From Roseibium suaedae (GTDB lineage: Bacteria > Pseudomonadota > Alphaproteobacteria > Rhizobiales > Stappiaceae): a DNA stretch of 64,000 nucleotides. The stretch covers positions 186,001-250,000 of the forward strand of contig NZ_FRBW01000002.1 of assembly GCF_900142725.1 (NCBI RefSeq), given 5' to 3'. Positions 3,024-44,688 of this stretch are shown piece by piece. Position 1 is the stretch's first letter, and each line of letters starts with the position of its first letter. The translations under genes and the position numbers were made by a program. The notes under the pieces are model-generated. The model was not told the origin of the DNA. It made no database searches and worked only from the letters and a program-made list of their open reading frames with translations.

Positions 3024-4568
3024 TTGATAGTCGAATTTCTCATCGCAGTCCTCATCACTTCCCTTTTCTTTGCTAGACAGGGAAACGTTGATCTGAATCC
3101 AGGGGACGAGGGTTACCTTGCCCATGGAATAACCCGTATGCATATGGGACAGATCCCCATCCGGGACTTCAAGTCTTACGACCCTTTCAGATACTATTGG
3201 TGCTACGTCACTTCATTTGCATTTGGCAGAGGCTTGATAGCAATACGTCGGGCATCTGCAGCATTCCTTGCAATTGCCCTTTGTCTGGCACTCATACCGG
3301 CACATCAGGCAGCCGGAAAAGGCTGGCCACTCGTTCCACTCGCCGCACTCATTCTGATCTGGGCGTTCCAGCTCTTCAAAAGCTTTGATATCTCGGCCTC
3401 ACTGATCTCGGTCGCAGTCGGAGCCGCCGTGATCAATCATCCCACAACAGAAGTGTTTCTGATCTCTGGAGTCTGGGTCGTCCTCGCCTGCACGATAGGA
3501 TTGATGCACGGAATTTATGCTGCGATTGGGATTTTCGGACTGATCACCGCAAGCACCCTTCAGACAGGAACTACCGATACTCTTCTGGTTCTTGTGAAAA
3601 ATCTAGGACTATTCATTGGCGGCATTGCGATCGGGCTCTGCCCTCTTCTTTTGAAGCTTGGCTCGATCAGCAAGCAACTTCTGGGACGGTTTGGAGCGGG
3701 CTCCACAAGCGGCACAAAGAGCAAGGACAGTGCAAAGGAGCTGAATATCTCCCTGCCCGTCCCCATGCCGTGGCATACACCCAACCCTCATGCATTCCCT
3801 ATTCAGAGACTGTCTCAGCGGCTTGTGGGGCTTCATTTCCTGGTGCTCCCGCTATTCTACCTGACGACGATCTTTGTTGTGTCGATCACAAGCCTTTCGG
3901 AGCATCCGCTTCTTGCAGCTTCGACCTTCATCGGGCTGCCTTATCTTCATCACGCTTACAAGCGTGCTGACATTGCCCACCTGAGCCAATCCATCGCTCC
4001 CTTTCTGCTGGCAATCAGCTCGGTCCTCTACATTGCCACAGAGGGGAACGATCTTTATATCGGCCTTGGTTCCGCAGCCCTGCTTGTTCTCGCCCTTTTG
4101 ACGGTCAGCACACACTCACCAATCCTGGCGCCGCTGCTCCTCCAGGACCACTACCGGAAGATCGACATCAACGGAGAGACATTCAATCTGCAAAGCGATG
4201 CGGTCACTCGGATTGCGTCAATTCGCGATTTCATCTCCAAAAATGTCGATGAAGATCAGAGAATCTTCGTGGCTCCCTATGAGCCGCTTCTTTACGAAGT
4301 TGTCGGGAAACTCTCCCCGGTGCGGAATGACTGCCTTTTCACAGTCTCCACGGCAGAAGAACAGAATGAAATCGTTGACCGGCTCAAGGAGAACCAGGTC
4401 GCGGCGGCCTTCATCAACAACTTCGCACTCGACAATAAGGAGAGCAGACGGTTCTCCTCCAGATGCGAAATTGTCTGGAACTATCTCGAAGAGAACTTCG
4501 ACAAGATCTCAATGCCACCGGAAAGCGGAGAGACTGCCGTGTTCTTCAAGCGCAAGGTCCAAGCTTGA
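3024..4568 (+). CDS. Polytopic membrane protein, GT-C glycosyltransferase-like
   Basis: A 514-residue integral membrane protein. After the first helix comes DEGYLAHG (about residues 29-36), then IRDFKSYDPFRYYW near 47-60. This DE plus R-D-F-x-S-Y-x-P-x-R-Y-Y layout is typical of the first periplasmic loop of GT-C, lipid-linked-sugar-dependent transferases (GT39-like). Roughly ten hydrophobic helices follow to about residue 365, then a soluble C-terminal part. The start is a TTG with AAGG eight bases upstream; no better in-frame ATG precedes the first helix. Lower GC than neighbours and a solitary position suggest acquisition. Family assignment is by motif only; substrate unknown. Confidence 0.6.
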   Translation: MIVEFLIAVLITSLFFARQGNVDLNPGDEGYLAHGITRMHMGQIPIRDFKSYDPFRYYWCYVTSFAFGRGLIAIRRASAAFLAIALCLALIPAHQAAGKGWPLVPLAALILIWAFQLFKSFDISASLISVAVGAAVINHPTTEVFLISGVWVVLACTIGLMHGIYAAIGIFGLITASTLQTGTTDTLLVLVKNLGLFIGGIAIGLCPLLLKLGSISKQLLGRFGAGSTSGTKSKDSAKELNISLPVPMPWHTPNPHAFPIQRLSQRLVGLHFLVLPLFYLTTIFVVSITSLSEHPLLAASTFIGLPYLHHAYKRADIAHLSQSIAPFLLAISSVLYIATEGNDLYIGLGSAALLVLALLTVSTHSPILAPLLLQDHYRKIDINGETFNLQSDAVTRIASIRDFISKNVDEDQRIFVAPYEPLLYEVVGKLSPVRNDCLFTVSTAEEQNEIVDRLKENQVAAAFINNFALDNKESRRFSSRCEIVWNYLEENFDKISMPPESGETAVFFKRKVQA

Positions 4569-4627: not shown

Positions 4628-4684
4628 TCTCCGGTTTGGTTTTCGGTCGAATCCGAGCCTCTTCTTCAAGTGTTAGCGCTAGGA

Positions 4685-4712
4685 CCCCTTGATGGCATTT
4701 GCTATCAAGGGG
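4685..4712 (+). promoter_or_regulatory. Hairpin covering the ribosome-binding site of lysR
   Basis: CCCCTTGATGGC (4685-4696) pairs with GCTATCAAGGGG (4701-4712), with one G-U pair and an ATTT loop. The 3' arm contains AAGGGG, the only Shine-Dalgarno-like sequence before the LysR start at 4715. In RNA this would hide the ribosome-binding site; in DNA it is a 28-bp near-palindrome that could be an operator. Confidence 0.55.
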
Positions 4713-4714
4713 TT

Positions 4715-5701
4715 ATGCGTGATCTGAATTTGAAGGCGACGGAGTATTTCGAGGCGGTTGCCCGTCTGGGCAGCGTGACCAAGGCTGCGGCCGAACTGGG
4801 GGTCACCCCTTCGGCCGTATCCCAGCAGCTCACCCTTCTGGAAACCCAGCTGGGGGTGAAACTGTTCCGGCGGGAAAAGCGCCGGCTGAACCTGACTATC
4901 GACGGCGACCGTCTCTTTCAGACCACCACACAGGCGTTCGGCGCGATCCGCAACGCCCGCTCGGCCATCACCCGGCAGCGGGACCTTCGCAATCTCATCA
5001 TCCGGGTCAGCCCCAGTTTCGGCGTCCGCTGGCTTGGGCCGCGGGTCGGCGGCTTCGCCAGCCAGAACCCGGACTGGAACATCCGCATCGACGCCTCGCC
5101 CGACTTCTCCTCCTTCGAGACAGAGACCGTCGATCTGGACCTGCGCTATGGCCTTGGCACCTGGAGCGGTCTGACCGTCAATCCGGTGATGCACGATCTG
5201 GTGCTGCCTCTTTGCAGCCCCGCCTATCTGGAACAGTTGCAGGCAATGTCACCCGATCCGGTCGAGCAACTGGCAGGCGCAAGGCTGATCGACAGCGTCA
5301 AGACCCTGTTCCGCTGGGACCTCTGGCTCGCGGCCAACCGGGTCGTCCTGCCGGACCTCACCTATCCGTTCCGCTTCGACCGTTCGTCCATGTCCATCGA
5401 GATGGCCAAACAAGGAGGAGGCATCGCACTCGACAGCGTGACCCTGTGCCTTGGCGAACTGGAGCGCGGCGAACTGGTGCCCTTCTCCACGGCCTTCGAG
5501 GTGATCGAATTTCCCGCCTACTGGTTCGTCTGCCCGCCGCGCCATCTCAACCGGCGCATCGTCAAGCGCTTCTCGGACTGGCTGACGGAGGCGTGCGGCG
5601 CCCATGACAATGCGGCCCGCGCACATCTGACGGCAAACGGCTGCCGCTTCCGCCCGAGCGCCCACACGGAACTGATCGACGTGAGGCCCTGGGACCTTTG
5701 A
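4715..5701 (+). CDS. LysR-family regulator, GcvA-like
   Basis: A 328-residue LysR-type transcription factor. The N-terminal winged helix-turn-helix occupies about residues 1-60, including GSVTKAAAELGVTPSAVSQQ; the rest is a periplasmic-binding-protein-like effector domain ending in the PxxxxxRIVKRFSDWL-type tail common in the GcvA branch. The start ATG at 4715 sits unusually close (2 nt) to its AAGGGG, within a hairpin. It is transcribed towards the leftward TRAP operon and ends 84 bases from dctM. A role in controlling that locus is inferred from position only; the GT-C-like gene on the other side is an alternative target. Confidence 0.85.
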   Translation: MRDLNLKATEYFEAVARLGSVTKAAAELGVTPSAVSQQLTLLETQLGVKLFRREKRRLNLTIDGDRLFQTTTQAFGAIRNARSAITRQRDLRNLIIRVSPSFGVRWLGPRVGGFASQNPDWNIRIDASPDFSSFETETVDLDLRYGLGTWSGLTVNPVMHDLVLPLCSPAYLEQLQAMSPDPVEQLAGARLIDSVKTLFRWDLWLAANRVVLPDLTYPFRFDRSSMSIEMAKQGGGIALDSVTLCLGELERGELVPFSTAFEVIEFPAYWFVCPPRHLNRRIVKRFSDWLTEACGAHDNAARAHLTANGCRFRPSAHTELIDVRPWDL

Positions 5702-5785: not shown

Positions 5786-7042
5786 CTAATAGATTGTCAG
5801 GAAAGGCACGTAGGAAATCAGCAACAGCACCCCGATCGCCACCGCATAGAAAGGCAACAGCGCCTTCACCGTTTCCAGCAACCCGGAACGGGCAATGCTC
5901 ATGGAGATGAACAATGTCGTGCCCACCGGCGGCGTGTAGAGACCGATTGCGAGGTTCACCACCATCATCAGGCCGAGCTGCACCAGATCGATGCCCATCG
6001 AGTTGGCAATCGTCACGAACAGCGGCCCCAGCAGCAGAACAGCTGCCGGCAGATCAATGAAGGCACCGACGATCAGCATCACGATGTTCATCGCCAGAAT
6101 GACCATCCATTGCTCTGCAAAGGTCGCGGCCACCCACTGGGCCAGTTCCTGCGGCACCCGCTCGGCGGTCATGATCCATTGCAGCGTGGATGAGGCCATG
6201 ATGATGAACATGACAGCACCGGTCATCGTAGCCGTGTCCACCAGGGCCTTCCAGATACCGGTCATGGTCAGGTCACGGTAGAGAATGCCCGAAACAATCA
6301 GCGCATAGGCAACCGCCATGACGGAGACTTCCGTCGGCGTTGCCACGCCGAAGCGAAGAGTGCCGATGACGAAGACAGGCATCAGCAAGGCCGGGACCGC
6401 TGCGACCAGCTGGCTGCGGAAGGCATAGAAGCCCCCTTCCAGCGGCGAGCGCGGCAGGTTGCGCCGGTGAGCGACAATCCAGACCGAAGCGAACATACCA
6501 AGACCCAGAAGCAGGCCGGGAAGAATGCCCGCGACGAACAGGTTGACGATCGAGACGTTGGAAACAAGGCCGAAGAGCATCAGGGGGATCGACGGCGGGA
6601 TCAGGACCGAGACAGTCGAAGACGCCGAATTGATCGCAGCCGCCATGGCCCGGGGATAGCCCTGCTGTTTCTGAACAGGGATCAGCGCATTGCCGATGGC
6701 GGTCGCATCCGCCACGGCCGAGCCGGAAACTCCACCGAACATGACCGAGCCGATGATCGACACCTGGCCCATGCCACCCTTCATGTTGCCGACGATCAGG
6801 CGGGCGATGTTGACCAGATAGATGCCGAACCGGCCGGACATCATCAGGTTGCCGGCGAGAATGAAGAACGGGATCGCGAGCATCGGGAAGCTCTGGGTCG
6901 GCGAATATAGCCGTTGCACGATCACCGCCAGCGGCTTGCCGTCGAGCCAGAGGGCTGCAGCTACGCCGCCCAGCATGGCATGGCCGATCGGCACGGCGCA
7001 GGCCAGAAGGATCATGAAGATCCAGATCATTGGCATGGTCAT
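5786..7042 (-). CDS. dctM: TRAP transporter large permease (DctM)
   Basis: The 418-residue large membrane subunit of a tripartite ATP-independent periplasmic transporter, which drives solute uptake with the sodium or proton gradient. About twelve hydrophobic helices are visible. Family landmarks include PFFILAGNLM near residue 58, VSGSAVADATAIG near 104 and PPSIPLMLFG near 150. Length is normal for DctM. It is the last gene of the leftward operon, 12 bases after dctQ. Substrate cannot be read from this subunit; the transketolase and dehydrogenase genes upstream suggest a small polyhydroxy carboxylate or ketose acid. Confidence 0.93.
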   Translation of the reverse strand: MTMPMIWIFMILLACAVPIGHAMLGGVAAALWLDGKPLAVIVQRLYSPTQSFPMLAIPFFILAGNLMMSGRFGIYLVNIARLIVGNMKGGMGQVSIIGSVMFGGVSGSAVADATAIGNALIPVQKQQGYPRAMAAAINSASSTVSVLIPPSIPLMLFGLVSNVSIVNLFVAGILPGLLLGLGMFASVWIVAHRRNLPRSPLEGGFYAFRSQLVAAVPALLMPVFVIGTLRFGVATPTEVSVMAVAYALIVSGILYRDLTMTGIWKALVDTATMTGAVMFIIMASSTLQWIMTAERVPQELAQWVAATFAEQWMVILAMNIVMLIVGAFIDLPAAVLLLGPLFVTIANSMGIDLVQLGLMMVVNLAIGLYTPPVGTTLFISMSIARSGLLETVKALLPFYAVAIGVLLLISYVPFLTIY

Positions 7043-7054
7043 GACTTGCGTCCT

Positions 7055-7627
7055 TTAGCTCAGGCTGCGGTTTTCGTAATCGGCTTCGAAGACAGAGGCG
7101 CCCGCCAGAATGCGCAGGATTTCCAGTGCAGAGATCACCGCCATGCCGGCAAAGGCATAGACCAGGCTTGCATAGCCCCAGATCTGCTTGATGCCGAGGG
7201 TGGACAGGGTCTGGAACTGGGACGCCTTCAGGATCGGCTGACTGGACAGAAGAACCGAAACGGAAATCAGGATGATAACGGCCTCGATGGCCACAAGCAG
7301 GATCCGCCTTGCCCCGGCAGGCAGCGCATCGGGAAGAATGGTGATGGCGATGTTGGTGCCACGGGACGCGGCAACCAGAATGCCGGCCGCCACCAGCCAG
7401 GGGAGCAGAACCGCGTGGACCTCATAGGCCCAGGCGATGCCGCCATCGAACCAATAGCGCAAAATCACATTGGCAAGCAGAGCGACGAACATGAAGCTCA
7501 AAGTAACCACGGCGATCAGCTTGCCGGTGAAGGCAATGGTTTCAATGATCCGTGAGGTCAGGACCAGAAGGGGGCGCGAGCGCCCCCTTCCGTCCGGAGC
7601 AGGACTAAGGGGGCCCCAGTCTGTCAT
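7055..7627 (-). CDS. dctQ: TRAP transporter small permease (DctQ)
   Basis: The 190-residue small membrane subunit that links the binding protein to DctM. Four helices are visible from about residue 40, with RYWFDGGIAWAYEV between the first two, typical for DctQ. The ATG overlaps the dctP stop by four bases (ATGA), implying translational coupling. The first 22 codons (Gly/Pro/Arg-rich) run through a strong GC hairpin at 7567-7590, and no ATG, GTG or TTG lies between it and the first helix. Either this odd N-terminus is real or translation begins from a non-standard codon such as the CTG near RIIETIAF. Confidence 0.88.
   Translation of the reverse strand: MTDWGPLSPAPDGRGRSRPLLVLTSRIIETIAFTGKLIAVVTLSFMFVALLANVILRYWFDGGIAWAYEVHAVLLPWLVAAGILVAASRGTNIAITILPDALPAGARRILLVAIEAVIILISVSVLLSSQPILKASQFQTLSTLGIKQIWGYASLVYAFAGMAVISALEILRILAGASVFEADYENRSLS
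7567..7590 (-). promoter_or_regulatory. Terminator-like hairpin inside the start of dctQ
   Basis: GAAGGGGGCG and CGCCCCCTTC form a perfect 10-bp stem with a CTCG tetraloop on the transcribed strand, 34-57 bases after the dctP stop. No U-run follows. Such a hairpin could protect the upstream dctP message or attenuate read-through so that binding protein exceeds permease. It is unusual because dctQ's open frame passes through it. Confidence 0.6.
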
Positions 7628-8592
7628 TTCATCCCCGTTGCTTTCTTCAGGGCAGCAACCAGGTCCGGATAGGTCTGAGCATATTTGTCATAGACCGATG
7701 CGGTTGCAGCCTGATAGGCGGCCTTGTCGGCGTCGGCGAATTTCGCGCCTTCCGCTTCCATCTTAGGCCGCAGGGTGTCATCGCCTTCCTGAGACAGCTG
7801 ACGCTGCAGCTTGCCGGCTTCCTTGGTGGCTTCCACCGCGCAGGCCTTGGTCGCATCGTCAATGCTGCTCCACCAGGCCAGACCCGTGACCACTGGTGTG
7901 GACTCGTACTTGTGGCCGGTCATGGTCACGTAAGGCGTGATCTCATGCAGCTTGGCGGAATAGATGTTGGTCAGCGGGTTTTCCTGTCCGTCAAAGACGC
8001 CGGACTGAAGCGCGGTCGGCAACTCGGACCAGGCAAGTGGAGCAGGAGAAGCGCCCAGCGCCTTGAAGATATCGACGGTCATCTCGTCCGGCGGAGTCCG
8101 GATCTTCATGCCCTTCAGGTCAGCCGGCTCGGAAACGAACTTGCCGACATGGGTCACGTTGCGGATGCCATTGTCCCAGAAACCAAGGATCTTGAGTCCG
8201 GCATTCTGCGCCCGCTCATCCAGCATCTGGCCGACTTCGCCATCCATGACTTCCCAGGCAGCCGGAAGGTCCTTGAACAGGAACGGCAGACCCAGAAGTC
8301 CGATTTCCGGAACGATCTGGCTCATGGCGCCCTGGCTGTTGGCCGTCACCTGGATGATGCCCGCATTCACCGACGTCAGCATTTCGACGTCATTGCCCAT
8401 GGTCGCGGATGGGGCAACGTTCACGGTGTCCTTGCCACCGGTGCACTTGGAAAATTCCTCGGCCCACTTTTCGGCTGCGATGAACCGCGGGTTTCCGGGG
8501 TTTGCGCCATGGGCAAAGATCACTTCATCAGCCTGGGCTGTTCCGGCGATCATCGTCGTTGCGGCCAGGACGGCCAGCACGTGCTTTTTCAT
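7624..8592 (-). CDS. dctP: TRAP transporter substrate-binding protein (DctP)
   Basis: A 322-residue periplasmic solute receptor. A signal peptide (MKKHVLAVLAATTMIAGTAQA) is cleaved before about residue 22. The mature DctP fold shows LKGMKIRTP near residue 163, the region that carries the conserved Arg gripping the substrate carboxylate, and GVFDGQENPL near 198. An AGGAGG site precedes the ATG. It sits between the SDR gene and dctQ, overlapping dctQ by four bases. The conserved Arg implies a carboxylate ligand; its identity is not evident. Confidence 0.94.
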   Translation of the reverse strand: MKKHVLAVLAATTMIAGTAQADEVIFAHGANPGNPRFIAAEKWAEEFSKCTGGKDTVNVAPSATMGNDVEMLTSVNAGIIQVTANSQGAMSQIVPEIGLLGLPFLFKDLPAAWEVMDGEVGQMLDERAQNAGLKILGFWDNGIRNVTHVGKFVSEPADLKGMKIRTPPDEMTVDIFKALGASPAPLAWSELPTALQSGVFDGQENPLTNIYSAKLHEITPYVTMTGHKYESTPVVTGLAWWSSIDDATKACAVEATKEAGKLQRQLSQEGDDTLRPKMEAEGAKFADADKAAYQAATASVYDKYAQTYPDLVAALKKATGMK

Positions 8593-8631
8593 CAGTCCAT
8601 TCCTCCTGTTTAACTGATAGTTTTACGGAGA

Positions 8632-8659
8632 CCGCACGCCAACCTCCACTGGCGTGCGG
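8632..8659 (-). promoter_or_regulatory. Intercistronic hairpin between the SDR gene and dctP
   Basis: CCGCACGCCA (8632-8641) and TGGCGTGCGG (8650-8659) form a perfect 10-bp stem with an 8-nt loop, starting 10 bases after the SDR stop and ending before the dctP ribosome-binding site. It lacks a U-run. It may be a partial terminator or an mRNA processing/stability element that sets a separate level for the transporter genes. Confidence 0.55.
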
Positions 8660-8669
8660 CCTCAAATGA

Positions 8670-9422
8670 TCAGTGGATCAAGGATCCGCCGTTCACGTCG
8701 ACCTCGGTGCCGGTGCAATAGGCCGACAGGTCGGAAGCCAGGAACAGGGCGCAACCAGCAACATCGGATGCTTCCCCTGCCCGGCCCATCGGAATGCCCT
8801 CGACAATGCTGGTCAGCATGTCCGGGGTCAGCTTGCCGCCGGTGATGTCCGTGGCGATGAAACCCGGGCAGATCGCGTTGACGCGCACATTGGCCGGAGC
8901 CAGCTCGCGGGCCATGGCCTTGGAGAGGCCAAGAACACCCGCCTTGGCTGCCGAGTAATGCGGGCCGCCAAAGATGCCGCCGCCGCGCTGCGCGGACACG
9001 GAGCTGAGGTTCACGATCGATCCGGACTTCTGCTCGCGCATCGCCGGAATGACGGCCTGGCTCATGTAGAGCGTGCCGCGCAGGTTCACATCCAGAACCG
9101 CGTCATAGTTCGCTGCGGCAATATCCATGATCTTCAGCGGCTGGGTGATGCCCGCATTGTTGACCAGGATATCGATCCGGCCCCACTTGGCCTTCAACTC
9201 GGCAGCGACGGCATCGCAGGCGGCCTTGTCGGTCACGTTGCAGGCAAGGCCGACATGGCGTTCGCCGATATCGGCCGCAGCCGCCTTGGCCGCTGCTTCA
9301 TCCAGATCGAGAATGGCAACCGTTGCACCGTGTTCGGCAAAGAGCTTGGCAGTCGCCTTGCCCAGGCCACGGGCAGATGCTGCCCCGGTGATGATTGCGA
9401 ACTTGTTGTCGAGAAGGCCCAT
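8670..9422 (-). CDS. Short-chain dehydrogenase/reductase
   Basis: A 250-residue classical SDR. The cofactor-binding glycine motif is TGAASARGLG (residues 12-21), NNAG lies near 88-91, and the catalytic set Ser141, Tyr156, Lys160 (YSAAK) is intact. An acidic D39-L-D pair after the second strand suggests NAD rather than NADP. The start at 9422 is preceded by GGAGG; the frame is open eight codons further. It lies between the transketolase C-subunit and the TRAP receptor, so the likely job is oxidising an imported hydroxy acid or polyol to a keto compound used by the transketolase. Exact substrate unknown. Confidence 0.9.
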   Translation of the reverse strand: MGLLDNKFAIITGAASARGLGKATAKLFAEHGATVAILDLDEAAAKAAAADIGERHVGLACNVTDKAACDAVAAELKAKWGRIDILVNNAGITQPLKIMDIAAANYDAVLDVNLRGTLYMSQAVIPAMREQKSGSIVNLSSVSAQRGGGIFGGPHYSAAKAGVLGLSKAMARELAPANVRVNAICPGFIATDITGGKLTPDMLTSIVEGIPMGRAGEASDVAGCALFLASDLSAYCTGTEVDVNGGSLIH

Positions 9423-9466
9423 GAGCCCTTTTCCTCCATAAGACATTGAAATGTTTCGGCGGGCTT

Positions 9467-10504
9467 TCAGAGCCAGCTCTTGATCTGTTCGGCGACCTTG
9501 GCAACGGACAGGCCGTACATGTCGTGAAGGGTCGGCAAGGCACCGGCCTCCAGGAATTCGTCGGGAAGGCCGATCATGCGGAAGCCGCCAATCGAGACAC
9601 CGCGGGTCAGCAATGTTCCCGCAACCGCTTCGCCCAGACCGCCAACGACCGTGTGGTTTTCTGCCGTGACCACGAGCCGTCCGCCCTTTGCCGCTTCCGC
9701 AGCAATGGTCTCGACGTCCAGCGGCTTGATGGTCGGGCAGTGAAGGACGGCAACGTCCACATTGTCTCTGGCCAACTGCTCTGCTGCATCGAGGGCGCGC
9801 ATGGTCATGAAGCCGGTGGAGATGACGAGGACATCCTTGCCCTCGCGGATCATCTGGGCCTTGCCAAGCAGGAACTTGTAGTCCGGCTTGTGGCGGGTCA
9901 GAACCGACGGCACCTTGCCGCGCAGAAGACGCGAATAGACCGGTCCCTCGTGGGCAATGATCTGCGGAACCATGCCCGCGATATCATCCGCATCGCAGGG
10001 ATCGATCAGCGTCATGTTCGGAAGGCCACGGAAGATCGCCAGATCCTCGGTCGCCTGATGGCTCGGGCCATAGCCCGTCGTCAGACCCGGCAGGGCGCAG
10101 ACGATCTTGACCGGCAGGTTCTCTTCCGCAATCGCCATTGCAATGAAATCATAGGCGCGGCGGGAGGCGAACACAGCATAGGTGGTAGCAAAGGGAATGA
10201 AGCCTTCACGGGCCAGACCGGCGGCAGCCGACATCAGGATCTGCTCCGCCATACCCATCTGGTAATAGCGGTCGGGCATTTCCTGACCGAAGATGTGAAG
10301 GTCCGTGTATTTGCCGAGATCGGCGGTCAAACCGACGATCCGCTCGTCCTTGCGGGCAGCTTCCACCAGAGCGTGACCGAAAGGCGCGGCAACGGTGTCA
10401 TAGCCTTCCGCAGCCAATGAGGCGATCATTGCGGAGGTTGCCTGGCGCTCGCCATCCGGCAATCTGCGCGGCTCGTATTTGCGGGCCATGGATGCGAGGG
10501 TCAT
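9467..10504 (-). CDS. Transketolase, C-terminal subunit
   Basis: A 345-residue subunit holding the pyrimidine-binding and C-terminal domains of a two-gene transketolase. It shows the active-site Glu in QMGMAEQ (about 82-88), TTGYGPSHQATEDLA near 143-157 and a C-terminal domain from about 210. The ATG at 10504 overlaps the stop of the N-subunit gene (ATGA). It resembles other split transketolases of catabolic clusters more than the housekeeping enzyme. With the N-subunit it would move a two-carbon ketol group from a ketose or hydroxypyruvate-like donor to an aldehyde using thiamine diphosphate and a divalent metal. Confidence 0.92.
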   Translation of the reverse strand: MTLASMARKYEPRRLPDGERQATSAMIASLAAEGYDTVAAPFGHALVEAARKDERIVGLTADLGKYTDLHIFGQEMPDRYYQMGMAEQILMSAAAGLAREGFIPFATTYAVFASRRAYDFIAMAIAEENLPVKIVCALPGLTTGYGPSHQATEDLAIFRGLPNMTLIDPCDADDIAGMVPQIIAHEGPVYSRLLRGKVPSVLTRHKPDYKFLLGKAQMIREGKDVLVISTGFMTMRALDAAEQLARDNVDVAVLHCPTIKPLDVETIAAEAAKGGRLVVTAENHTVVGGLGEAVAGTLLTRGVSIGGFRMIGLPDEFLEAGALPTLHDMYGLSVAKVAEQIKSWL

Positions 10505-11355
10505 GCTGGCTTTCCTTCTTCCAGAACGGCGAGAGCCTTGCCCCATTCATCCGCTTCCACGCGGACAAAATGGGTGATCTCACGGGCTTCGAGAAACGGA
10601 ACGCCCTTGCACATGGTGGTGTCGAAGATGATGACGCGCGGCTTTGCATCCGTGGCGGAGCGGGCCGTGTCGAAGGCCTTGACGACGGCGGCAAGGTCAT
10701 TGCCGTTGACCCGCTGGGCGTGCCAGCCGAAGGCTTCCCACTTTTCCGTCAGCGGCTCGGAACACAGCATTTCGGTCGACTTTCCGTCCGCCTGCTGGTC
10801 GTTGAAATCGACAAGGCAAATGAGATTGTCGAGCTTGTGATGGGCGCCGGACATGGCCGCTTCCCAGGTCGAGCCTTCGCCCAGCTCGCCGTCGGACATC
10901 AGATTGTAGATGAAGGCCGGGCTTTTCTTGCGCTTCAGGCCCATGGCCATGCCAACCGCGATGCCAAGGCCGTGACCAAGAGAACCGCCGGTGATTTCCA
11001 TTCCGGGCGTATAGGAAGCCATGCCCGACATGGGCATGCGGCTGTCGTCCATGCCGTAGGTTTCAAGCTCTTCTTCCGGCAGGATACCGGCTTCCATCAG
11101 AACCGCATAAAGGGCGATGGCATAGTGGCCGATGGAGAGCAGAAACCGGTCGCGGCCTTCCCATTCGGGCTCTTCGGCGCGGTAATCGAGGGCATGGAAA
11201 TAGGCCGCCGCCAGAACATCGGCGATGCCAAGAGCCTGGCCGATATAGCCCTGGCCCTGGACTTCGCCCATCAGGAGTGCCTTGCGGCGGATGTTCCACG
11301 CGCGCAGTTCCAACGACGTGTTGGACCGCGCCGCAGAGCGGCTAAGCGATGTCAT
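10501..11355 (-). CDS. Transketolase, N-terminal subunit
   Basis: A 284-residue subunit with the diphosphate-binding domain of thiamine diphosphate enzymes. The motif usually written GDG...N is SDGELGEG...DFNDQQADG here (about 157-195), with Ser replacing the first Gly. TPGMEITGGSLGHGLG near 117-132 is typical. The ATG at 11355 follows GGGAGGA by six bases; an upstream ATG six codons earlier lacks a site. First structural gene of the leftward operon (split transketolase, SDR, TRAP P-Q-M). The SDG variant also occurs in split transketolases by family knowledge and need not mean loss of activity. Confidence 0.92.
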   Translation of the reverse strand: MTSLSRSAARSNTSLELRAWNIRRKALLMGEVQGQGYIGQALGIADVLAAAYFHALDYRAEEPEWEGRDRFLLSIGHYAIALYAVLMEAGILPEEELETYGMDDSRMPMSGMASYTPGMEITGGSLGHGLGIAVGMAMGLKRKKSPAFIYNLMSDGELGEGSTWEAAMSGAHHKLDNLICLVDFNDQQADGKSTEMLCSEPLTEKWEAFGWHAQRVNGNDLAAVVKAFDTARSATDAKPRVIIFDTTMCKGVPFLEAREITHFVRVEADEWGKALAVLEEGKPA

Positions 11356-11439
11356 GGTGTCCTCCCGAGACATTTTCTCGTTTGACCAGACGCTAGCACC
11401 CGGATCGGAGGATTGATTTTAAGAAATTTGCACGCGCTT

Positions 11440-11455
11440 GTTAGTTGAGCTTAAC
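11440..11455. promoter_or_regulatory. Candidate LysR operator upstream of the split transketolase
   Basis: GTTAGTTGAGCTTAAC has inverted GTTA/TAAC ends and contains a T-N11-A arrangement, about 85 bases upstream of the transketolase N-subunit start. The surrounding 11400-11510 interval is AT-richer and the only likely promoter site for the leftward operon other than read-through from lysR. Confidence 0.35.
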
Positions 11456-11537
11456 AATATCGAAAAAGGCAAGGATTTGAGCTGATTTCAACTCACCGAT
11501 CTCTATTCCGAAGCCATGTAAAAAAAGACGAAGGCCG

Positions 11538-12428
11538 TTAAAACCCGGCGCTGTCGGCCCCAAGGCCCGTCAAAAGCCAGCGCACGAAGGCCCGGACGGG
11601 ACTGCGCACTGGGCGCGACCGGGGCAGAACCAGACTGTGTCCGGCATAACTCACATCCCGTCCCTCTCCGGAAAGCGGGGCACACAAGCGGCCAGCCTGA
11701 AGGTCCCGCTCCGCAAGGCGGGTTGATTCCAGGGCTACCCCCAAACCATTGACGGCGGCGGATAGCGCCAGAAAACTCCGGTCGAAGCGCAAGGGACGAT
11801 TGAGCGGCCTGGCCACCCCGTTTTTCTGCAGCCAATCCCCCCAGCGCACCTGCTTCTGATCGCTCTGAATCAACGGAAACCGGGAAAGGTCCTCAACGCC
11901 CCGGATCTCTTCGGCAATCTCCGGGGAACAAAGCGGCGTGACCATCTCGTTCCCGAGAGGAATAGTCGTCACCCCCTCGGCACGCACCGGCCCGTAAACA
12001 ATATCGACATCGAAATCATCGGCGATGAAGCGGGCATATTCCGTGTCGGCCGCGAGCCGCAGTTCCACTTCCGGATGGGCCTGGGTGAACTCCTTCAGGC
12101 GCGGAACCAGCCAGAGTGCGGCAAAGCTTGGCGCGGCATGCACCCGAAGCAACTTGGAGCCGCGCTGCACCACATCTTCCACGCCCTGACGGATTTCGTC
12201 GAAGGCCAGGGTCAGCCGCGACAGAAGCGCCATGCCCTCAAGAGTGGGATGCACCCCGCGCCCTGCCCGTTCGAACAGGCGCGCGCCCAGGACATCCTCC
12301 AGCTGGCGGACGGAATGGCTGATAGCGCTAGGGGACAGGCCCAGCTCATCGGCCGCCGCCTTGAAGCTGCCGTGACGGGCTGCGGCCTCGAAGCTGCGCA
12401 GCATGGAGAGAGTGGCACCACCGATCAT
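11538..12428 (-). CDS. LysR-family regulator, GcvA-like
   Basis: A 296-residue LysR-type regulator with helix-turn-helix GSFKAAADELGLSPSAISHS (about 20-39) and an effector domain. It sits between the leftward split-transketolase/TRAP operon and the rightward transketolase/dehydrogenase/kinase operon, the standard position for a regulator of both. Its start is only 13 bases from a perfect 17-bp palindrome, so autoregulation with divergent control is likely. The two LysR proteins of this locus are of the same GcvA-like type but clearly different sequences. Confidence 0.88.
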   Translation of the reverse strand: MIGGATLSMLRSFEAAARHGSFKAAADELGLSPSAISHSVRQLEDVLGARLFERAGRGVHPTLEGMALLSRLTLAFDEIRQGVEDVVQRGSKLLRVHAAPSFAALWLVPRLKEFTQAHPEVELRLAADTEYARFIADDFDVDIVYGPVRAEGVTTIPLGNEMVTPLCSPEIAEEIRGVEDLSRFPLIQSDQKQVRWGDWLQKNGVARPLNRPLRFDRSFLALSAAVNGLGVALESTRLAERDLQAGRLCAPLSGEGRDVSYAGHSLVLPRSRPVRSPVRAFVRWLLTGLGADSAGF

Positions 12429-12440
12429 GCCCCAGTCATG

Positions 12441-12457
12441 GATGAATCTGATTCATC
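12441..12457. promoter_or_regulatory. 17-bp palindromic operator between lysR and transketolase
   Basis: GATGAATC-T-GATTCATC is a perfect palindrome with a one-base centre in the 130-bp divergent gap. It contains T-N11-A and is 13 bases from the lysR start and about 100 from the transketolase start, the expected arrangement for a LysR recognition site controlling both directions. Confidence 0.6.
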
Positions 12458-12558
12458 AATCAATGAAATATCGTCGTTTGTCGCTCCTTGGCTGCCGGAT
12501 TACGCATTAGGGTCAAGAAGCAGACGGCCGGAAAGGCCCTGCAGGGAGGAAATCAGAT

Positions 12559-14526
12559 ATGGCCGACATCCAGCAGATGGCGCATGCGATCCGCTTTCTC
12601 GCGCTCGACAGCATCCTGAACGCAGGCGAAGGTCATCAGGGCGTTCCCCTCGGCATGGCCGAAATCGCGGCGACACTTTACGCCAATCACCTCAAGGCCG
12701 ACCCAGCTGATCCCCAGTGGCCAGACCGGGACCGGGTGGTCCTTTCCAACGGCCATGGCTCCATGCTGCTCTATGCGCTGTTGCATCTGGCCGGGTATGA
12801 ACATGTCTCCCTCGATGCCCTGAAATCCTTCCGCAAGCTGGGCTCGGTCTGCGCCGGACACCCGGAGATCGAACAGCACGCAGGGATCGAGATCACCTCG
12901 GGCCTGCTTGGTCAGGGCATCGCCTGCGCCGTCGGCATGGCGGTGGCCGAAGCACGGCTTTCGGCCCGGTTCGGCCCCAGCCTTGTCGATCACCGCACCT
13001 GGGCCTTTGTCGGCGACGGCTGTTTTCAGGAAGGCATCGGCCAGGAAGCCATTTCCCTTGCAGGCCATCTCAAGCTCGGCAAGCTGACGTTCCTTTGGGA
13101 TGACAATCACATCACCGACGATGGCGACACGGACCTGTCCATCAGCGAGGATGTTCCCGCCCGTTTCCGTGCAGCCAACTGGCATGTTCAGGAAATCGAT
13201 GGCCATGACATTGGCGCCATCGATGCCGCGATCAATGCTGCCAAGGCCGATCCCCGCCCGTCCCTGATTGCCTGCCGCACGACCATCGCCAAAGGCATCC
13301 CGCGCCTTCAGGGCCAGCGCGGTGGCCACAGCGCCCCTCTGACCCAGAAGGATTCAGAGGAAGCGCGCAGCCTCCTGAACTGGCCGCACCCTTCCTTCAC
13401 GGTTCCAGAATCTGTGCTCGCCGACTGGCGCTCGATTGTACCGCGCGGCAATGAGACCCATTCCCAATGGCAGACGGCTCTTGCAAACCATGGAGAGGCT
13501 GCAGAATTCCGGCGCTGGACAACAGGCACCTTGCCGGACGGCTGGAGTGACACCGTCCGCTCCATTTCAATAAGCGCTGCTGACAAGGCAGCAAGCCTTC
13601 CCACCATCACCGCTTCCGGCGATGTCTGCGACGCCCTGGCTGAAGCCCTGCCCGAACTGATGGTCCTGTGCGCGGATCTGGAAGCACCGACCAATCACAA
13701 ACGCTCCCGCCATGCCTTCACCGCCAGCGACCGCAGCGGCAGCTATGTCCATTGCGGCGTGCGGGAACACTTGATGGGCGCCATGACCGACGGTATCGCC
13801 GCCCATGGCGGCCTGCGCCCGGTCAACGTCACCTATCTTGCCTTTGCCGATTACGAACGCCCGGCCATGCGCATGGCCGCGCTGATGAACCTGCCCGGCC
13901 TATTTGTCTTCAGTCATGATTCCATCGGCGTCGGCTCCAACGGCCCGACCCACCAGCCGGTGGAAATCCTGGCAAGTTTCCGCGCCATGCCGAACATGCT
14001 CGTTTTCCGCCCTGCCGACGCAGTGGAAACAGCCGAAGTCTGGCAGATCGCCCAGGAACACCGCACCGGCCCGAGCCTGCTGGCCTTGTCCCGTCAGGCA
14101 ACGCCCACCTTGCGCAACGAAACCGGCGAAAACCTCAGCCGCAAGGGGGCCTATGTCCTGAGCGAACCCGAGGGGCAGCGCGACATCACCCTGCTTGCCA
14201 CCGGAACGGAAGTTGCGCTCGCCGTCGAGGCCGCAAGCCTGCTCGCAAAGGACAACATTCGCGCGGCGGTCGTCTCGATGCCCTCGTGGGAACTCTTCCG
14301 CGATCAGAGAGCGGACTACCGGGCAGAGGTTCTCGGCACCGCCCCGCGTATCGGCATCGAGGCAGCCCTCGACTTCGGCTGGGAACGCTTCCTTCGCCCG
14401 GAAGACCGGTTTATAGGCATGAGCGGCTTTGGCGCTTCCGCACGTGCAGAGGTGCTTTATGAGCATTTCGGCATCACAGCCGGGCGGATTGCGGATGTGG
14501 CCCGGGACCTGACAGGAAAGAACTGA
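12559..14526 (+). CDS. Single-chain transketolase with altered substrate site
   Basis: A 655-residue full-length transketolase. Catalytic features are kept: His26 (GHQG), GDG at 152-154, DDNH at 181-184, His257, the activating Glu403 (GVREH), His453, His465 and Arg512. Substrate-recognition positions differ: by gap-free reading, E. coli Arg358 corresponds to Ile350, Ser385 to Thr378 and Asp469 to Asn461. In E. coli those residues hold the donor/acceptor phosphate and the acceptor C2 hydroxyl. A non-phosphorylated or unusual substrate, such as hydroxypyruvate as donor, is inferred. GGAGG lies eight bases before the ATG. First gene of the rightward operon; two bases separate it from the dehydrogenase. 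Confidence 0.92.
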   Translation: MADIQQMAHAIRFLALDSILNAGEGHQGVPLGMAEIAATLYANHLKADPADPQWPDRDRVVLSNGHGSMLLYALLHLAGYEHVSLDALKSFRKLGSVCAGHPEIEQHAGIEITSGLLGQGIACAVGMAVAEARLSARFGPSLVDHRTWAFVGDGCFQEGIGQEAISLAGHLKLGKLTFLWDDNHITDDGDTDLSISEDVPARFRAANWHVQEIDGHDIGAIDAAINAAKADPRPSLIACRTTIAKGIPRLQGQRGGHSAPLTQKDSEEARSLLNWPHPSFTVPESVLADWRSIVPRGNETHSQWQTALANHGEAAEFRRWTTGTLPDGWSDTVRSISISAADKAASLPTITASGDVCDALAEALPELMVLCADLEAPTNHKRSRHAFTASDRSGSYVHCGVREHLMGAMTDGIAAHGGLRPVNVTYLAFADYERPAMRMAALMNLPGLFVFSHDSIGVGSNGPTHQPVEILASFRAMPNMLVFRPADAVETAEVWQIAQEHRTGPSLLALSRQATPTLRNETGENLSRKGAYVLSEPEGQRDITLLATGTEVALAVEAASLLAKDNIRAAVVSMPSWELFRDQRADYRAEVLGTAPRIGIEAALDFGWERFLRPEDRFIGMSGFGASARAEVLYEHFGITAGRIADVARDLTGKN

Positions 14527-14528
14527 GA

Positions 14529-15494
14529 ATGGAACACATCGTCTTTCTCGACAGGGCGACCATCGCACCGGAAATTTCCCTTTCGCGCCCAAGCTTTGCC
14601 CACGACTGGACCGAGCATCAGCGCACCGGTCCCTCCGAAACGGCCGGGCGTCTGAAAGACGCGACAATCGCCATCACAAACAAGGTGCGCATTGGAGCGG
14701 ACGAATTAGACGCGGCCCCCGGCCTGCGCCTGATTGCCGTTGCCGCCACCGGTTATGACTGCGTCGACATTGCCGCCTGCGAGGCCCGGGGCGTTGCCGT
14801 CTGCAACATCCGGGGCTATTCGGTGAACACCGTTCCCGAGCATGTCTTCACCCTGCTGCTGGCCCTGCGCCGCAGCCTCGTCTCCTATGTGCGCGAGGTG
14901 CAAGAAGGGGCCTGGCAACAGGCCGGTCAGTTCTGTTTCTTCTCCGGCCCGATCCGGGACCTGTCCGGGTCCACCCTCGGCATCATCGGCAAGGGGGGAA
15001 TCGGATCGCGGGTGGCCGCCATCGGCAGCGCCTTCGGCATGAAGGTGATCTATGCCGCCAGACCCGGCGCCCCGGCAGAAGACGGCCGCGTTGCCTTTGA
15101 AGACTTCTGCGCCAGTGCCGACGTGATTTCCCTCCATTGCCCGCTGACACCCCAGACCCGCGGCCTGATGAACGATGCGGCATTTGCGGCCATGAAGCGT
15201 CAACCGGTCATTCTCAACACCGCCCGCGGCGCCCTGATCGATCTGCCTGCCCTTGAACGTGCGCTTGAGCAAGGACTTGTCAGCGGTGCCGGGATTGACG
15301 TTGCCGACAAGGAACCGCCGGCGCCGGATGACATCCTGATGCGTCTGGCCAACCATCCGCGTGTGCTCGTCACCCCCCATGTGGCCTGGGCCTCCAGCGA
15401 GGCCCAGCAGACCCTGGCAGATCAATTGACCAGCGTGCTAGAACGGTTTTCTGCCGGAGATCCGATCAATCTCCTGAACCCCCAACGCGGATAA
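14529..15494 (+). CDS. D-2-hydroxyacid dehydrogenase, hydroxypyruvate reductase type
   Basis: A 321-residue NAD(P)-dependent D-isomer-specific 2-hydroxyacid dehydrogenase. The nucleotide-binding motif G154-x-G156-x-x-G159 is followed by the catalytic Arg233 (NTARG), Glu262 (DKEPP) and His284 (TPHVAW). The residues ending the second nucleotide-binding strand are YAARPG rather than an acidic residue, which favours NADPH. It starts two bases after the transketolase stop and is followed four bases later by glycerate kinase, so reduction of hydroxypyruvate or glyoxylate to D-glycerate or glycolate is the natural reading. Glyoxylate/hydroxypyruvate preference cannot be set from sequence. Confidence 0.9.
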   Translation: MEHIVFLDRATIAPEISLSRPSFAHDWTEHQRTGPSETAGRLKDATIAITNKVRIGADELDAAPGLRLIAVAATGYDCVDIAACEARGVAVCNIRGYSVNTVPEHVFTLLLALRRSLVSYVREVQEGAWQQAGQFCFFSGPIRDLSGSTLGIIGKGGIGSRVAAIGSAFGMKVIYAARPGAPAEDGRVAFEDFCASADVISLHCPLTPQTRGLMNDAAFAAMKRQPVILNTARGALIDLPALERALEQGLVSGAGIDVADKEPPAPDDILMRLANHPRVLVTPHVAWASSEAQQTLADQLTSVLERFSAGDPINLLNPQRG

Positions 15495-15498
15495 ATTC

Positions 15499-16761
15499 AT
15501 GGCACACGACACCGACAAGTCCCTGCTCTGCTCGCTCTTTGACGTTGCCGTGACCTCAGCCAAGCCGGATGCCGTACTGGCGAAATTCCTGCCCCAAAAG
15601 CCTGCCTCCGGCCGTGTGGTCGTGATTGCCGCAGGCAAGGCAGCCGCTGCCATGGCCGCAGCTCTTGAAGACGTTTGGGGGCCCTGCGAGGGCCTTGCCC
15701 TGACCCGCTATGGCCACGCGGTGCCGACCCGCACCATCGAAGTAATCGAGGCAGCCCACCCGGTCCCGGATGAAGCAGGCCGGATCGCCGCCGGCAGGAT
15801 CCTCGATCTGGCGTCCAGCCTGCAAGACGGCGACACGCTGATCACACTCATGTCCGGTGGCGCATCCGCGCTTCTGTCCCGAGGGGCAGGCAACATCAGC
15901 CTTGAGGAAAAGGCCGAACTGACACGCGCGCTGCTCGCCTCTGGCGCAGACATTGGCGAAATGAACACGGTGCGCCGGCACATTTCCGCAATCAAGGGCG
16001 GACGCCTCGCTGCAAGCGCCTATCCTGCCCGCTGCCTGACCTTCGCCATTTCGGACGTGCCCGGTGACAAACCGGAAATCATCGGCTCCGGCCCCACGGT
16101 CGCCGATCCGACCACCCAGGCGGACGCCAAGGCGATCCTCGCCAAATATGGCATCGACGTACCGGCCAGCATTCAGGCGGCTCTCAATGACCCCGCCTTC
16201 GAAAGCCCAAAGCCCGGCGATGAAAAGCTGTCGCGCACCGAATTTCACATGATCGCCACGCCGCAAATGGCGCTGGAAGCTGCAAAGGCCGCAGCCACTC
16301 TGCCTTGCCATCTTCTTGGAGACGCCATAGAGGGAGAAGCTCGCGAAGTCGGCCGTGCCTTTGCCGGTCTCGCCCGTGCGGTCAGGGAAGGAAAGTCCGC
16401 GTTCACCGCCCCCTGCCTTCTGCTGTCGGGCGGCGAGACGACCGTGACCTTGCCGAAAGGCGCCAGCGGCCGGGGCGGCCGCAATGTGGAATGGCTGATG
16501 GGCTTTGCCGAAGGCGTTGCCGGAATTGAGGGAATTGCGGCTGTCGCAGGAGACACGGACGGGGTGGATGGCGCAGCCGAAGTCGCCGGGGCCTATGCGG
16601 ACAGTTCAACCGCCGGCCGGGCCCGCGCTGCCGGATACAAGCTGGACGATGCCATGGCGGCCTATGACGGCCACGGGTTTTTCGAAAGACTGGGCGACCA
16701 GATCATCACCGGCCCGACCAACACCAACGTCAATGATTTCCGGGCGATCCTGATCCGCTGA
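15499..16761 (+). CDS. gckA: Glycerate 2-kinase (MOFRL family)
   Basis: A 420-residue kinase converting D-glycerate to 2-phosphoglycerate with ATP. N-terminal landmarks include VIAAGKAAAAMA (about 41-52), MSGGASALLS near 118 and the IKGGRLA region near 164. The C-terminal MOFRL part shows LLSGGETTVT near 311, GRGGRN near 325 and GDTDGVDG near 351, all typical of GckA/TtuD-type enzymes. It is the last gene of the rightward operon and gives the cluster a route from hydroxypyruvate via glycerate into glycolysis. Confidence 0.93.
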   Translation: MAHDTDKSLLCSLFDVAVTSAKPDAVLAKFLPQKPASGRVVVIAAGKAAAAMAAALEDVWGPCEGLALTRYGHAVPTRTIEVIEAAHPVPDEAGRIAAGRILDLASSLQDGDTLITLMSGGASALLSRGAGNISLEEKAELTRALLASGADIGEMNTVRRHISAIKGGRLAASAYPARCLTFAISDVPGDKPEIIGSGPTVADPTTQADAKAILAKYGIDVPASIQAALNDPAFESPKPGDEKLSRTEFHMIATPQMALEAAKAAATLPCHLLGDAIEGEAREVGRAFAGLARAVREGKSAFTAPCLLLSGGETTVTLPKGASGRGGRNVEWLMGFAEGVAGIEGIAAVAGDTDGVDGAAEVAGAYADSSTAGRARAAGYKLDDAMAAYDGHGFFERLGDQIITGPTNTNVNDFRAILIR

Positions 16762-17533: not shown

Positions 17534-18370
17534 TTAATGAAAACTAGCCTGAAAGGATGTTGCCACGAGGGATACATGCGCGTCCAGCGGCGGAAATAAC
17601 TCAAAGGCCTTCGGCTCACGTGCGAAGTTCCAAAGCCGGAAAAGGCTCCACTCCGAACGCCGCTCCTCGGCCACGGCCAGTTCGTTTCGGCTAATGTGGA
17701 AGGGCGTGCGCTCCCAGCCATTCGTCGTCTTCACCTCGATCAGGCGCGGACGGCCATCCGACGAGAAGCTGGCAATATCGTAGCCGGCACCATCTCCCTC
17801 TTCCTCCGAAACCCATTGAATCTTGCGCGCAAGATCAGCGCGACCAGCTGCAATCAGCGAAGCGCGTTCATGAACTAGGACAAGTTCCTCGCCTGCCTGA
17901 CCGAGGGAGCGGTTTCGCTCGTCTCTTGCGGCGACATCAAACTTTCGGGCGATGTGCAGCATCTGCTCCAACTCCTGCGGCGGAGTGTGGTTCGACAACG
18001 TGGGCGGCGGCCCGATCCAGATCGGCTGAGGCTCCGCCAGGCCTGTCAACGATCCCGCAACAGAATGGCGACCGAGCCACGCCGGGTTTAGTGCCACCCA
18101 GCGTGCCACAGCATCCACCAGCGTCATCTGGAAATTGAACGCGGGCTTGTAGCCCGGGATCCAGTCCTCGCCGAGCCCTTTCAGCACGGCGCTGATGTTC
18201 TGGTGCTTGAACTCGACCGATCCCTCGGACCGATCATTCAACAGAGGCAGAAGCCCGCGCCGATGCTCGGCCTTGTTGTAGGGGCGACCAGAGACGTCGT
18301 CGGCCAGCATCGCGAAGTAATCCGCGACGATCAGGTCGTTCTCTTCATCTGTCCAGGCCCCGTTTGACAT
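17534..18370 (-). CDS. DUF3883 nuclease-like protein
   Basis: A 278-residue soluble protein. The C-terminal half carries a DUF3883 core: GYDIASFSSDGRPRLIEVKTT near residues 194-214, whose D...E-V-K spacing matches the PD-(D/E)xK nuclease-like fold, preceded by a helical segment beginning NRSLGQAGEELVL. The N-terminal half (about 1-120) contains a wHTH-like region common in phage- or restriction-associated proteins. Such proteins often accompany defence islands; this one lies alone beside tRNA-Ser, a frequent integration point. No methylase or helicase partner is present. Function is not established. Confidence 0.75.
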   Translation of the reverse strand: MSNGAWTDEENDLIVADYFAMLADDVSGRPYNKAEHRRGLLPLLNDRSEGSVEFKHQNISAVLKGLGEDWIPGYKPAFNFQMTLVDAVARWVALNPAWLGRHSVAGSLTGLAEPQPIWIGPPPTLSNHTPPQELEQMLHIARKFDVAARDERNRSLGQAGEELVLVHERASLIAAGRADLARKIQWVSEEEGDGAGYDIASFSSDGRPRLIEVKTTNGWERTPFHISRNELAVAEERRSEWSLFRLWNFAREPKAFELFPPLDAHVSLVATSFQASFH

Positions 18371-18606
18371 CACGCCAGGCTAAGGGCGGAAACTGCGTTT
18401 GTCATCAGAGACTTCGCGCAAGACGCCCAAGACATACCAACGACCACGCCGCCCGTGTCGCGTCTCCGTCTGCATCGAAACAAACCGAAACCAGCGAAAC
18501 GCAGGCGCAACGCGATCCCGCCAGCTCACTGAATTATATGGGGATTTTGAGTCCGTCTCGCAGGGAGCGAGGGACGGGTGGTCCCTGCAAACCACTTTTG
18601 GCACAT

Positions 18607-42068: not shown

Positions 42069-42140
42069 GAGATGCAGTCCTCAGGGCTGGTCATCAGGAT
42101 AAACGCTCCCCCCTTCAAGGATGGCAGAAGCTATCAAACG

Positions 42141-42170
42141 GAAGGCGCAGCGGTTGCCCGCTGTGCCTTC
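42141..42170. terminator. Convergent terminator between the YHS gene and phoX
   Basis: GAAGGCGCAGCGG (42141-42153) pairs with CCGCTGTGCCTTC (42158-42170) over 13 positions with one G-U pair and a four-base loop. Lies between converging genes. Confidence 0.65.
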
Positions 42171-42185
42171 TATAGTTCCAGTGGC

Positions 42186-44078: not shown

Positions 44079-44307
44079 AGCTTGCTCTCCAGATGGCTGG
44101 CTATTGAAGAAGACCGGCCCCGGATAATGAGCTTGCATGACAGTGCGGCGACACGAACCGAGGCTAACCGCGCCAGAAGTCGCATCAGGTTACTTTATAA
44201 CAAAACAACTCCGCAGAATCCCTTAGAAAACCGGCAAGCTGCGGCAAGCTGCCGCAGCCCTCACTTCATGCAGGGACAAGTTTCGCAGCGAGGGGAAGAA
44301 GCAGGGA

Positions 44308-44688
44308 TCACGCGCTTTCCCGGTCCAGCCCGCTTTGCGCATCGTAGCGCGCCCGGGCCTCGTCGATGGCAGGCAGGTTATTGAGCGCCCAGTCACCAAT
44401 CTCGCGCAAGGGGCCACGGATCGATTCCCCAAGCGGTGTCAGAGAATATTCCACCTTGGGCGGAATTGTCGGGTGATACTCGCGGTTGACCATGCCGTCC
44501 CGCTCGAGTTCGCGCAGGGTCAGACTCAGCATGCGCTGGGAAATGCCCAGGTTCCGCTTCAATTCGTTAAACCGCAGCGTTCCGTAATTTCCCAATGAAA
44601 TAACAATCAGAACGCTCCAGCGGTCCCCCACACGGGACAGGACCTCATTGATGCGGCTGCAATCCTTGCAAGGGCCGTCTGACTTCAT
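44308..44688 (-). CDS. HxlR-family regulator
   Basis: A 126-residue winged-helix regulator. CKDCSRINEVLSRVGDRWSVLIV gives the conserved N-terminal Cys and W-x-V-L-I pattern; RFNELKRNLGISQRMLSLTLREL is the recognition helix region. ATG 44688 follows GGAGG by eight bases; upstream starts exist. Divergent from the nitroreductase gene by about 120 bases, the usual arrangement for HxlR control of oxidoreductases. The Cys may sense electrophiles, as in related regulators; inference. Confidence 0.88.
   Translation of the reverse strand: MKSDGPCKDCSRINEVLSRVGDRWSVLIVISLGNYGTLRFNELKRNLGISQRMLSLTLRELERDGMVNREYHPTIPPKVEYSLTPLGESIRGPLREIGDWALNNLPAIDEARARYDAQSGLDRESA

Follow-up and report, generated by a model that had tools for sequence, protein, structure and literature searches.

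In the 64,000-nucleotide stretch of the Roseibium suaedae genome analysed here (the window; positions 186,001 to 250,000 of contig NZ_FRBW01000002.1, our G000:C6:186001-250000, within a 5.14-Mb assembly), the genes at window positions 5786..16761 bring together two transketolases, one split and one single-chain, a TRAP (tripartite ATP-independent periplasmic) transporter, a short-chain dehydrogenase (SDR), a 2-hydroxyacid dehydrogenase and a glycerate kinase. We give about an even chance to the reading that the cluster is inducible and serves the catabolism of a small hydroxy acid, with a transketolase transferring a two-carbon (C2) unit and the three-carbon (C3) part ending as 2-phosphoglycerate. 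The reading draws on the gene content, its conservation, the two non-housekeeping transketolase clades and a solute-binding protein, DctP, of the acid type; from these we infer the substrate, every reaction and the assignment of each transketolase. Nine enzyme and transport genes and a LysR gene were confirmed in the cluster, and together with a repeat and a second regulator they are as follows.

4670..5701 (likely ATG near 4715), plus strand: lysR2, second GcvA-like regulator, convergent to dctM; PRK11139 229 bits, under the cut-off of 288
5786..7042, minus strand: dctM, TRAP large permease; PF06808 379 bits, TIGR00786 410.9 bits against a cut-off of 268
7055..7627, minus strand: dctQ, TRAP small permease; PF04290 70 bits
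7624..8592, minus strand: dctP, TRAP solute-binding protein; PF03480 250 bits
8670..9446, minus strand: SDR dehydrogenase; PF13561, best PDB match 7krk at 313 bits
9467..10504, minus strand: tkC, C-terminal subunit of the split transketolase; PF02779 and PF02780, with E87, H149 and R195 conserved
10501..11373, minus strand: tkN, N-terminal subunit of the split transketolase, binding thiamine diphosphate (ThDP); PF00456 137 bits, with Y43 and S116 in place of the canonical H26 and H100
11538..12428, minus strand: lysR1, GcvA-like regulator, divergent to tkt; PF00126 and PF03466, PRK11139 240 bits, under the cut-off of 288
12441..12457, no strand: perfect 8-bp inverted repeat GATGAATC-T-GATTCATC, 17 bp overall, in the gap between lysR1 and tkt, read directly from the sequence
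12559..14526, plus strand: tkt (TKT2), specialised single-chain transketolase of its own clade; TIGR00232 698.6 bits against a cut-off of 682, with I350 and N461 for R358 and D469
14529..15494, plus strand: hpr, D-2-hydroxyacid dehydrogenase of the hydroxypyruvate/glyoxylate reductase type; PF02826 and PF00389, best NCBIfam model PRK06487 at 330 bits, under the cut-off of 448
15499..16761, plus strand: gck, MOFRL/DUF4147 glycerate 2-kinase family; PF05161 104 bits (cut-off 28.3), PF13660 267 bits (cut-off 23), PDB 2b8n 256 bits

The domain scans bear out the gene content that the initial annotation had read here (a split and a single-chain transketolase, an SDR, TRAP genes, a dehydrogenase and a MOFRL kinase). 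Of its GcvA-like LysR genes, lysR1 lies in the range and lysR2 just outside it; a lysR2 homologue terminates the TRAP gene run elsewhere too, e.g. in loci L041 and L060. The genes are packed as in operons: on the minus strand, transcribed in the order lysR1, tkN, tkC, SDR, dctP, dctQ and dctM, the pairs tkN/tkC and dctP/dctQ overlap or nearly so (the ATG of tkC overlaps the stop of tkN, and the mechanical open reading frame (ORF) start at 10546 falls inside tkN), and gaps of 2-4 bases separate tkt, hpr and gck on the plus strand. The inverted repeat is possibly an operator. The SDR is intact in its tetrad N121, S148, Y164 and K168 and also has D47, in keeping with the oxidation assigned to it at the outset. 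The predicted type of hpr follows from family placement only, and gck, which scores over the cut-offs of both the MOFRL and the DUF4147 domains, is a probable glycerate 2-kinase.

Relatives of the split enzyme were sought in genome_contigs with the tkC alignment A1. The 595 pattern matches looked at there yielded at least 577 relatives, from alpha-, beta- and gammaproteobacteria. The best 80 of these were kept, and are the unselected loci below; with plasmid loci and genome stretches added, and the window excluded, there are 101 loci in which both subunits are present. Conserved co-occurrence, which had been proposed as a check on the cluster, holds for its core: an SDR lies within 1.5 kb of the split transketolase in 93 of the 101 loci, TRAP genes within 6 kb in 69 and a LysR gene nearby in 81, these and the other neighbour counts being lowered by loci truncated at contig ends. 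The nearest full gene-order match is in Allorhizobium pseudoryzae (L039), where the same genes stand together, both LysR genes included, at 50-90% identity gene by gene. Because the full set recurs there and the pair of split transketolase and SDR recurs in 93/101 loci, the clustering goes beyond chance.

The split transketolase belongs to a discrete family, as judged by the drop in identity across 398 genomes of the phylum, which were searched separately with tkN and with a TKT2 profile. With tkN, 23 places in 22 genomes were found at 66% identity or more, and the next matches stand at 57%, 53% and then 43% or below. Active-site positions were mapped through the genome's own housekeeping transketolase and are named by E. 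coli numbers, H26 and H100 being donor-site histidines. H100, R91, R358, S385, H461, D469 and R520 are positions of the E. coli transketolase (PMC10787763), and D155 and N185 transketolase positions given in PMC11659671. In the 102 rows of the family, the window included, H26 is replaced by Tyr in 101 (one gap) and R91 by Gly and H100 by Ser in all, while the ThDP/Mg residues D155 and N185 and the catalytic E411 are retained in every row; H66 (101, one gap), H261, H473 and R520 are also retained. By these residues the enzyme is placed in the ThDP-dependent transketolase superfamily, with a predicted C2 transfer. The intermediate relatives L205 (57%) and L206 (53%) have Tyr and Ser as in the window family and L207 (41-43%) has Tyr and Asn; in the more distant split enzymes L208-L211 and L213-L215, seven in all, both H26 and H100 are retained.

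H100L is part of E. coli transketolase variants that admit pyruvate, a donor without the donor hydroxyl (PMC10787763), and since H26 and H100 are both lost here, the donor of the split enzyme may not be an ordinary ketol. The enzyme could be a transketolase-like ThDP enzyme whose transferred or released group is not glycolaldehyde but some other acyl unit, for instance the acetyl of a methyl ketol or something larger, as DXS uses pyruvate. We regard this as unlikely. The three replaced positions beside an intact cofactor site point that way, as do the 187 bits of tkC against the DXS model TIGR00204, although these are under the cut-off of 466. However, the partner genes (TKT2, DhaKL, dehydrogenase and kinase) resemble C2/C3 sugar chemistry, the C1 hydroxyl could still be bound by Ser and Tyr, and DXS itself retains its counterpart of H26.

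The second transketolase, TKT2, forms one clade with a Shimodaira-Hasegawa-like approximate likelihood ratio (SH-aLRT) support of 100, apart from the other transketolases of the class. Four comparison rows of this tree (L012, L013, L020 and L032) resemble wrong-frame ORFs and have very long branches, and the TKT2 clade is independent of them. Although TKT2 is like housekeeping transketolases in passing the TIGR00232 cut-off, it differs from them by its separate clade, and the genome has a housekeeping enzyme of its own at C6:1314403, which is 48% identical to TKT2. Donor histidines are retained in all 24 TKT2 rows, whereas R358 has become Ile in 21/24, S385 Pro in 21/24 and D469 Asn in 24/24, and R520 is retained in 19/24 and Lys in the other five; 19 of the 24 rows carry DLEAPT(N/S/D)HKR where the housekeeping enzyme has DLTGSNNTK. 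Judged by its phosphate/acceptor residues R358, S385 and D469, TKT2 would not count as a housekeeping transketolase. Both transketolases are thus intact at the checked ThDP/Mg residues and altered at specificity residues, and any selectivity assigned to these changes is putative. That neither of the two is the housekeeping enzyme agrees with clade and residues alike.

With the TKT2 profile, five of the 398 genomes score 990-1315 bits and all others 862 or less. All five also have the split enzyme (chance 3e-7 if independent, although two of these genomes belong to one genus). In three, namely the present genome, G436 and G498, the two genes are at most 10 kb apart on one contig. Twelve of the 80 unselected loci have TKT2, at a gap of 142-3823 bases from the split genes. 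A further transketolase besides TKT2 is present in each of G436, G498, G563, G587 and G247. The TKT2 gene of G247 (contig C120, L219) is on a contig of 13 kb that looks mixed and may be a binning error.

The two transketolases would make different C2 transfers: they may act in series as a relay, or in parallel on two donors, or the split enzyme may carry out another ThDP reaction. For the cluster, the initial annotation was right that there is no aldolase, isomerase or sugar kinase: none was found by domain and family scans among the gene set of the range 5786..16761, and the only kinase adjoining the split transketolase is the MOFRL glycerate kinase. This does not extend to its relatives, however, as a TIM-barrel protein (PF01261), a DhaKL-type kinase or, in 14 cases, both occur in 18 of the 80 unselected loci. 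In a relay, the split enzyme would pass C2 to an unphosphorylated aldehyde (glycolaldehyde to give erythrulose, or formaldehyde to give dihydroxyacetone), and TKT2 would move C2 from the resulting ketose to glyceraldehyde 3-phosphate; elsewhere the DhaKL kinase and the TIM-barrel isomerase would drain the ketose. The two modules never share a locus: TKT2 (12) and DhaKL/TIM (18) co-occur in none of the 80 loci (Fisher one-sided p 0.036), and TKT2 (20) and DhaKL/TIM (22) in none of 100 tree rows (p 0.0037), which include loci picked by the TKT2 search (L039, L043 and L163-L165) or fetched for TKT2 (L196 and L197). No DhaKL homologue was found in the present genome at E 1e-30, in a search without a positive control, and R358 and D469 are lacking in both transketolases. 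A tree-aware pair test of TKT2 against DhaKL/TIM, however, was not significant (median p 1), and 50 of the 80 loci have neither module. AptAB, a split transketolase compared below, acts on phosphorylated sugars, and its E. coli AptB subunit also lacks R358, H461 and D469; the loss of these residues is therefore no proof against phosphate binding, and the argument that the split enzyme cannot bind phosphate was dropped. All in all, we consider a relay improbable. The TIM-barrel protein is found in only one of the 398 genomes at E 1e-40, and this genome has the split enzyme.

Under the reading of a hydroxy-acid catabolic cluster, the TRAP transporter would import the acid. DctP residues R144, R165, N205 and D68 align with the 4P47 ligand residues R152, R173, N213 and D76, which bind carboxylate and hydroxyl (PMC11668362), and with two Arg, an Asn and an acidic ligand residue it is predicted to be of the hydroxy-acid type, in line with the uptake of an acid proposed at first. 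Its predicted model (deep alignment) has a pLDDT (predicted local distance difference test) of 92.6 and the TRAP solute-binding fold, with 4nq8 as best PDB match (template modelling score, TM, 0.89). Ligands of DctP homologues are pantoate, erythronate and sugar acids, most of them co-purified, which the source states as a caution (PMC11668362). The SDR would then oxidise a secondary alcohol to give a ketol acid, and a specialised transketolase would take off its two-carbon end, ultimately to glyceraldehyde 3-phosphate, forming xylulose 5-phosphate. The 2-hydroxyacid dehydrogenase would turn the C3 remainder (hydroxypyruvate or tartronate semialdehyde) into D-glycerate, from which the MOFRL kinase would make 2-phosphoglycerate; a second MOFRL kinase is encoded elsewhere in the genome. 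No glyoxylate carboligase over cut-off was found in the genome (best 319.7 bits against 711.2), and for this reason a C3 keto acid formed directly accounts better for the dehydrogenase-kinase pair than glyoxylate does. As the pair could use a C3 remainder, a C5 acid fits best, the likeliest substrate being one of the aldonate type or a branched one. A C4 substrate, tetronate, is possible but less favoured because of the same lack of a carboligase over cut-off. The split enzyme has Otn genes close by in 6/101 loci and a lactonase-like amidohydrolase in 10/101; in addition, HIBADH-type dehydrogenases cluster with it in 25/93 loci (ORF clustering), scoring best against L-threonate dehydrogenase, though under its cut-off. 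In L047 and L081 the split cluster directly adjoins OtnC/OtnI and an L-threonate-dehydrogenase-like gene, a TIM-barrel protein and DhaKL are also present, and otnK is annotated in L047.

The dehydrogenase and the kinase both accompany TKT2 in Allorhizobium and Azospirillum, and two-transketolase clusters with the dehydrogenase occur in Azoarcus, Paraburkholderia and Skermanella. On plasmids of Azospirillum lipoferum and A. ramasamyi (L042 and L050) an SDR, TKT2, the dehydrogenase and the kinase stand together, with no TRAP genes or split transketolase nearby; on paper this set suffices for such a pathway. Among the 100 tree rows the dehydrogenase is associated with TKT2 (6/20 against 2/80, p 7e-4).

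Several points weigh against the hydroxy-acid reading. With H26 and H100 lost throughout the family, the C2 transfer by the split enzyme from hydroxypyruvate or a similar ketol, as first proposed, is doubtful as to the donor. The reductase-kinase pair is suited to bring a C3 keto acid to 2-phosphoglycerate, but, with the dehydrogenase found in 2/80 and the kinase in 0/80 of the unselected loci, it does not generally accompany the split enzyme. Nor is the association of dehydrogenase and TKT2 significant in these loci (1/12 against 1/68, p 0.28), and the pair's link with TKT2 rests mainly on plasmid loci chosen via the TKT2 search. In G563 and G587, of the same genus, TKT2 is unlinked to the split gene, with nqr genes adjoining it in G563; in G247 (99% complete) TKT2 is present but a search at E 1e-30 gave no split enzyme, and none was found on the two Azospirillum plasmids with TKT2, the plasmids only being searched. 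Finally, substrate and activities are proposals read from the genes. In short, the initial interpretation is partly supported. A simpler route, in which the SDR would oxidise (L-)glycerate to hydroxypyruvate, followed by C2 donation with loss of CO2 or by reduction to D-glycerate and phosphorylation, would require no enzyme beyond the Azospirillum set, but it is very unlikely, since it accounts neither for the split enzyme's rebuilt donor site nor for why two transketolases should be needed.

More doubtful than the hydroxy-acid reading as a whole, and held only tentatively, is the further proposal that the split enzyme, with its rebuilt donor pocket (H26Y, R91G and H100S), would cut a C-C bond of the imported acid as no known transketolase does, with TKT2 or a ketose kinase completing the transfer into pentose phosphates, in a pathway undescribed as far as searched. 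No published description of the cluster was found in the literature searched, outside which most subscription papers lie, and to that extent the view that it matches no known scheme stands. Identifying the substrate would close a gap in our picture of carbon turnover in soils and the sea, and it may yield a natural transketolase with the donor range that engineers have sought through changes of H100 (PMC10787763).

Elsewhere in the same genome, at about C6:67 kb (G000:C6:63600-69800; L213 8632-14738), there is a second split transketolase, 33% identical to that of the window and 42.3% to AptAB of E. coli SE15. It stands between genes for a fucose-isomerase-C-type protein and for an FGGY kinase, and a sugar-binding protein is encoded beside them; this points to another sugar pathway, perhaps an apiose-like one. 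In the window itself, a protein with a NOV_C domain (PF13020) is encoded next to the cluster at 17534-18373 on the minus strand. Long ORFs without a Pfam match at E 1e-5 lie at 3024-4568 (plus), 42072-44384 (plus) and 55806-58781 (minus), the last of which may not be a gene because a long ORF on the opposite strand overlaps it.

Among known systems, AptAB (E. coli SE15 ECSF_RS02710/02715), the apulose-4-phosphate transketolase of D-apiose catabolism (PMC13001218), is like the window enzyme in being a two-gene transketolase within a catabolic cluster that has its own transporter. However, in E. coli the transporter is of the ABC type and the cluster also includes an FGGY kinase; the window cluster has neither, and the joined subunits are only 32.0% identical. 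Because of this low identity, and because AptA retains H26 and H100 where the window family has Tyr and Ser, the split enzyme is not the apiose enzyme; the candidate role of an AptAB acting on 3-oxo-isoapionate was rejected on the same grounds and for want of an adjoining sugar kinase, while a branched acid stays a candidate substrate. DesAB, a "transketolase" proposed as steroid-17,20-desmolase that would cleave a C2 side chain adjoining a tertiary alcohol (PMC3735941), likewise joins a split transketolase and a dehydrogenase in one operon, but with another substrate and another host, the two being set side by side from descriptions. SqwGH of the sulfo-TK pathway is also a split transketolase that strips C2 from a non-standard sugar; there, both C2 transfers to glyceraldehyde 3-phosphate are made by one enzyme, an isomerase is required, and the head-group motif is RAFDR instead of the RSFHR of ordinary transketolases (PMC11659671). 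Compared by this motif only, TKT2 mostly has I-P-Y-H-R, and the split enzyme retains the last R without the His; in our alignment, whose S385 column is uncertain, its family starts the motif with A, P or S and never has Asp as the fourth residue. By analogy, then, the cluster may work like the sulfo-TK and apiose pathways, with a dedicated transketolase removing C2 from an odd substrate.

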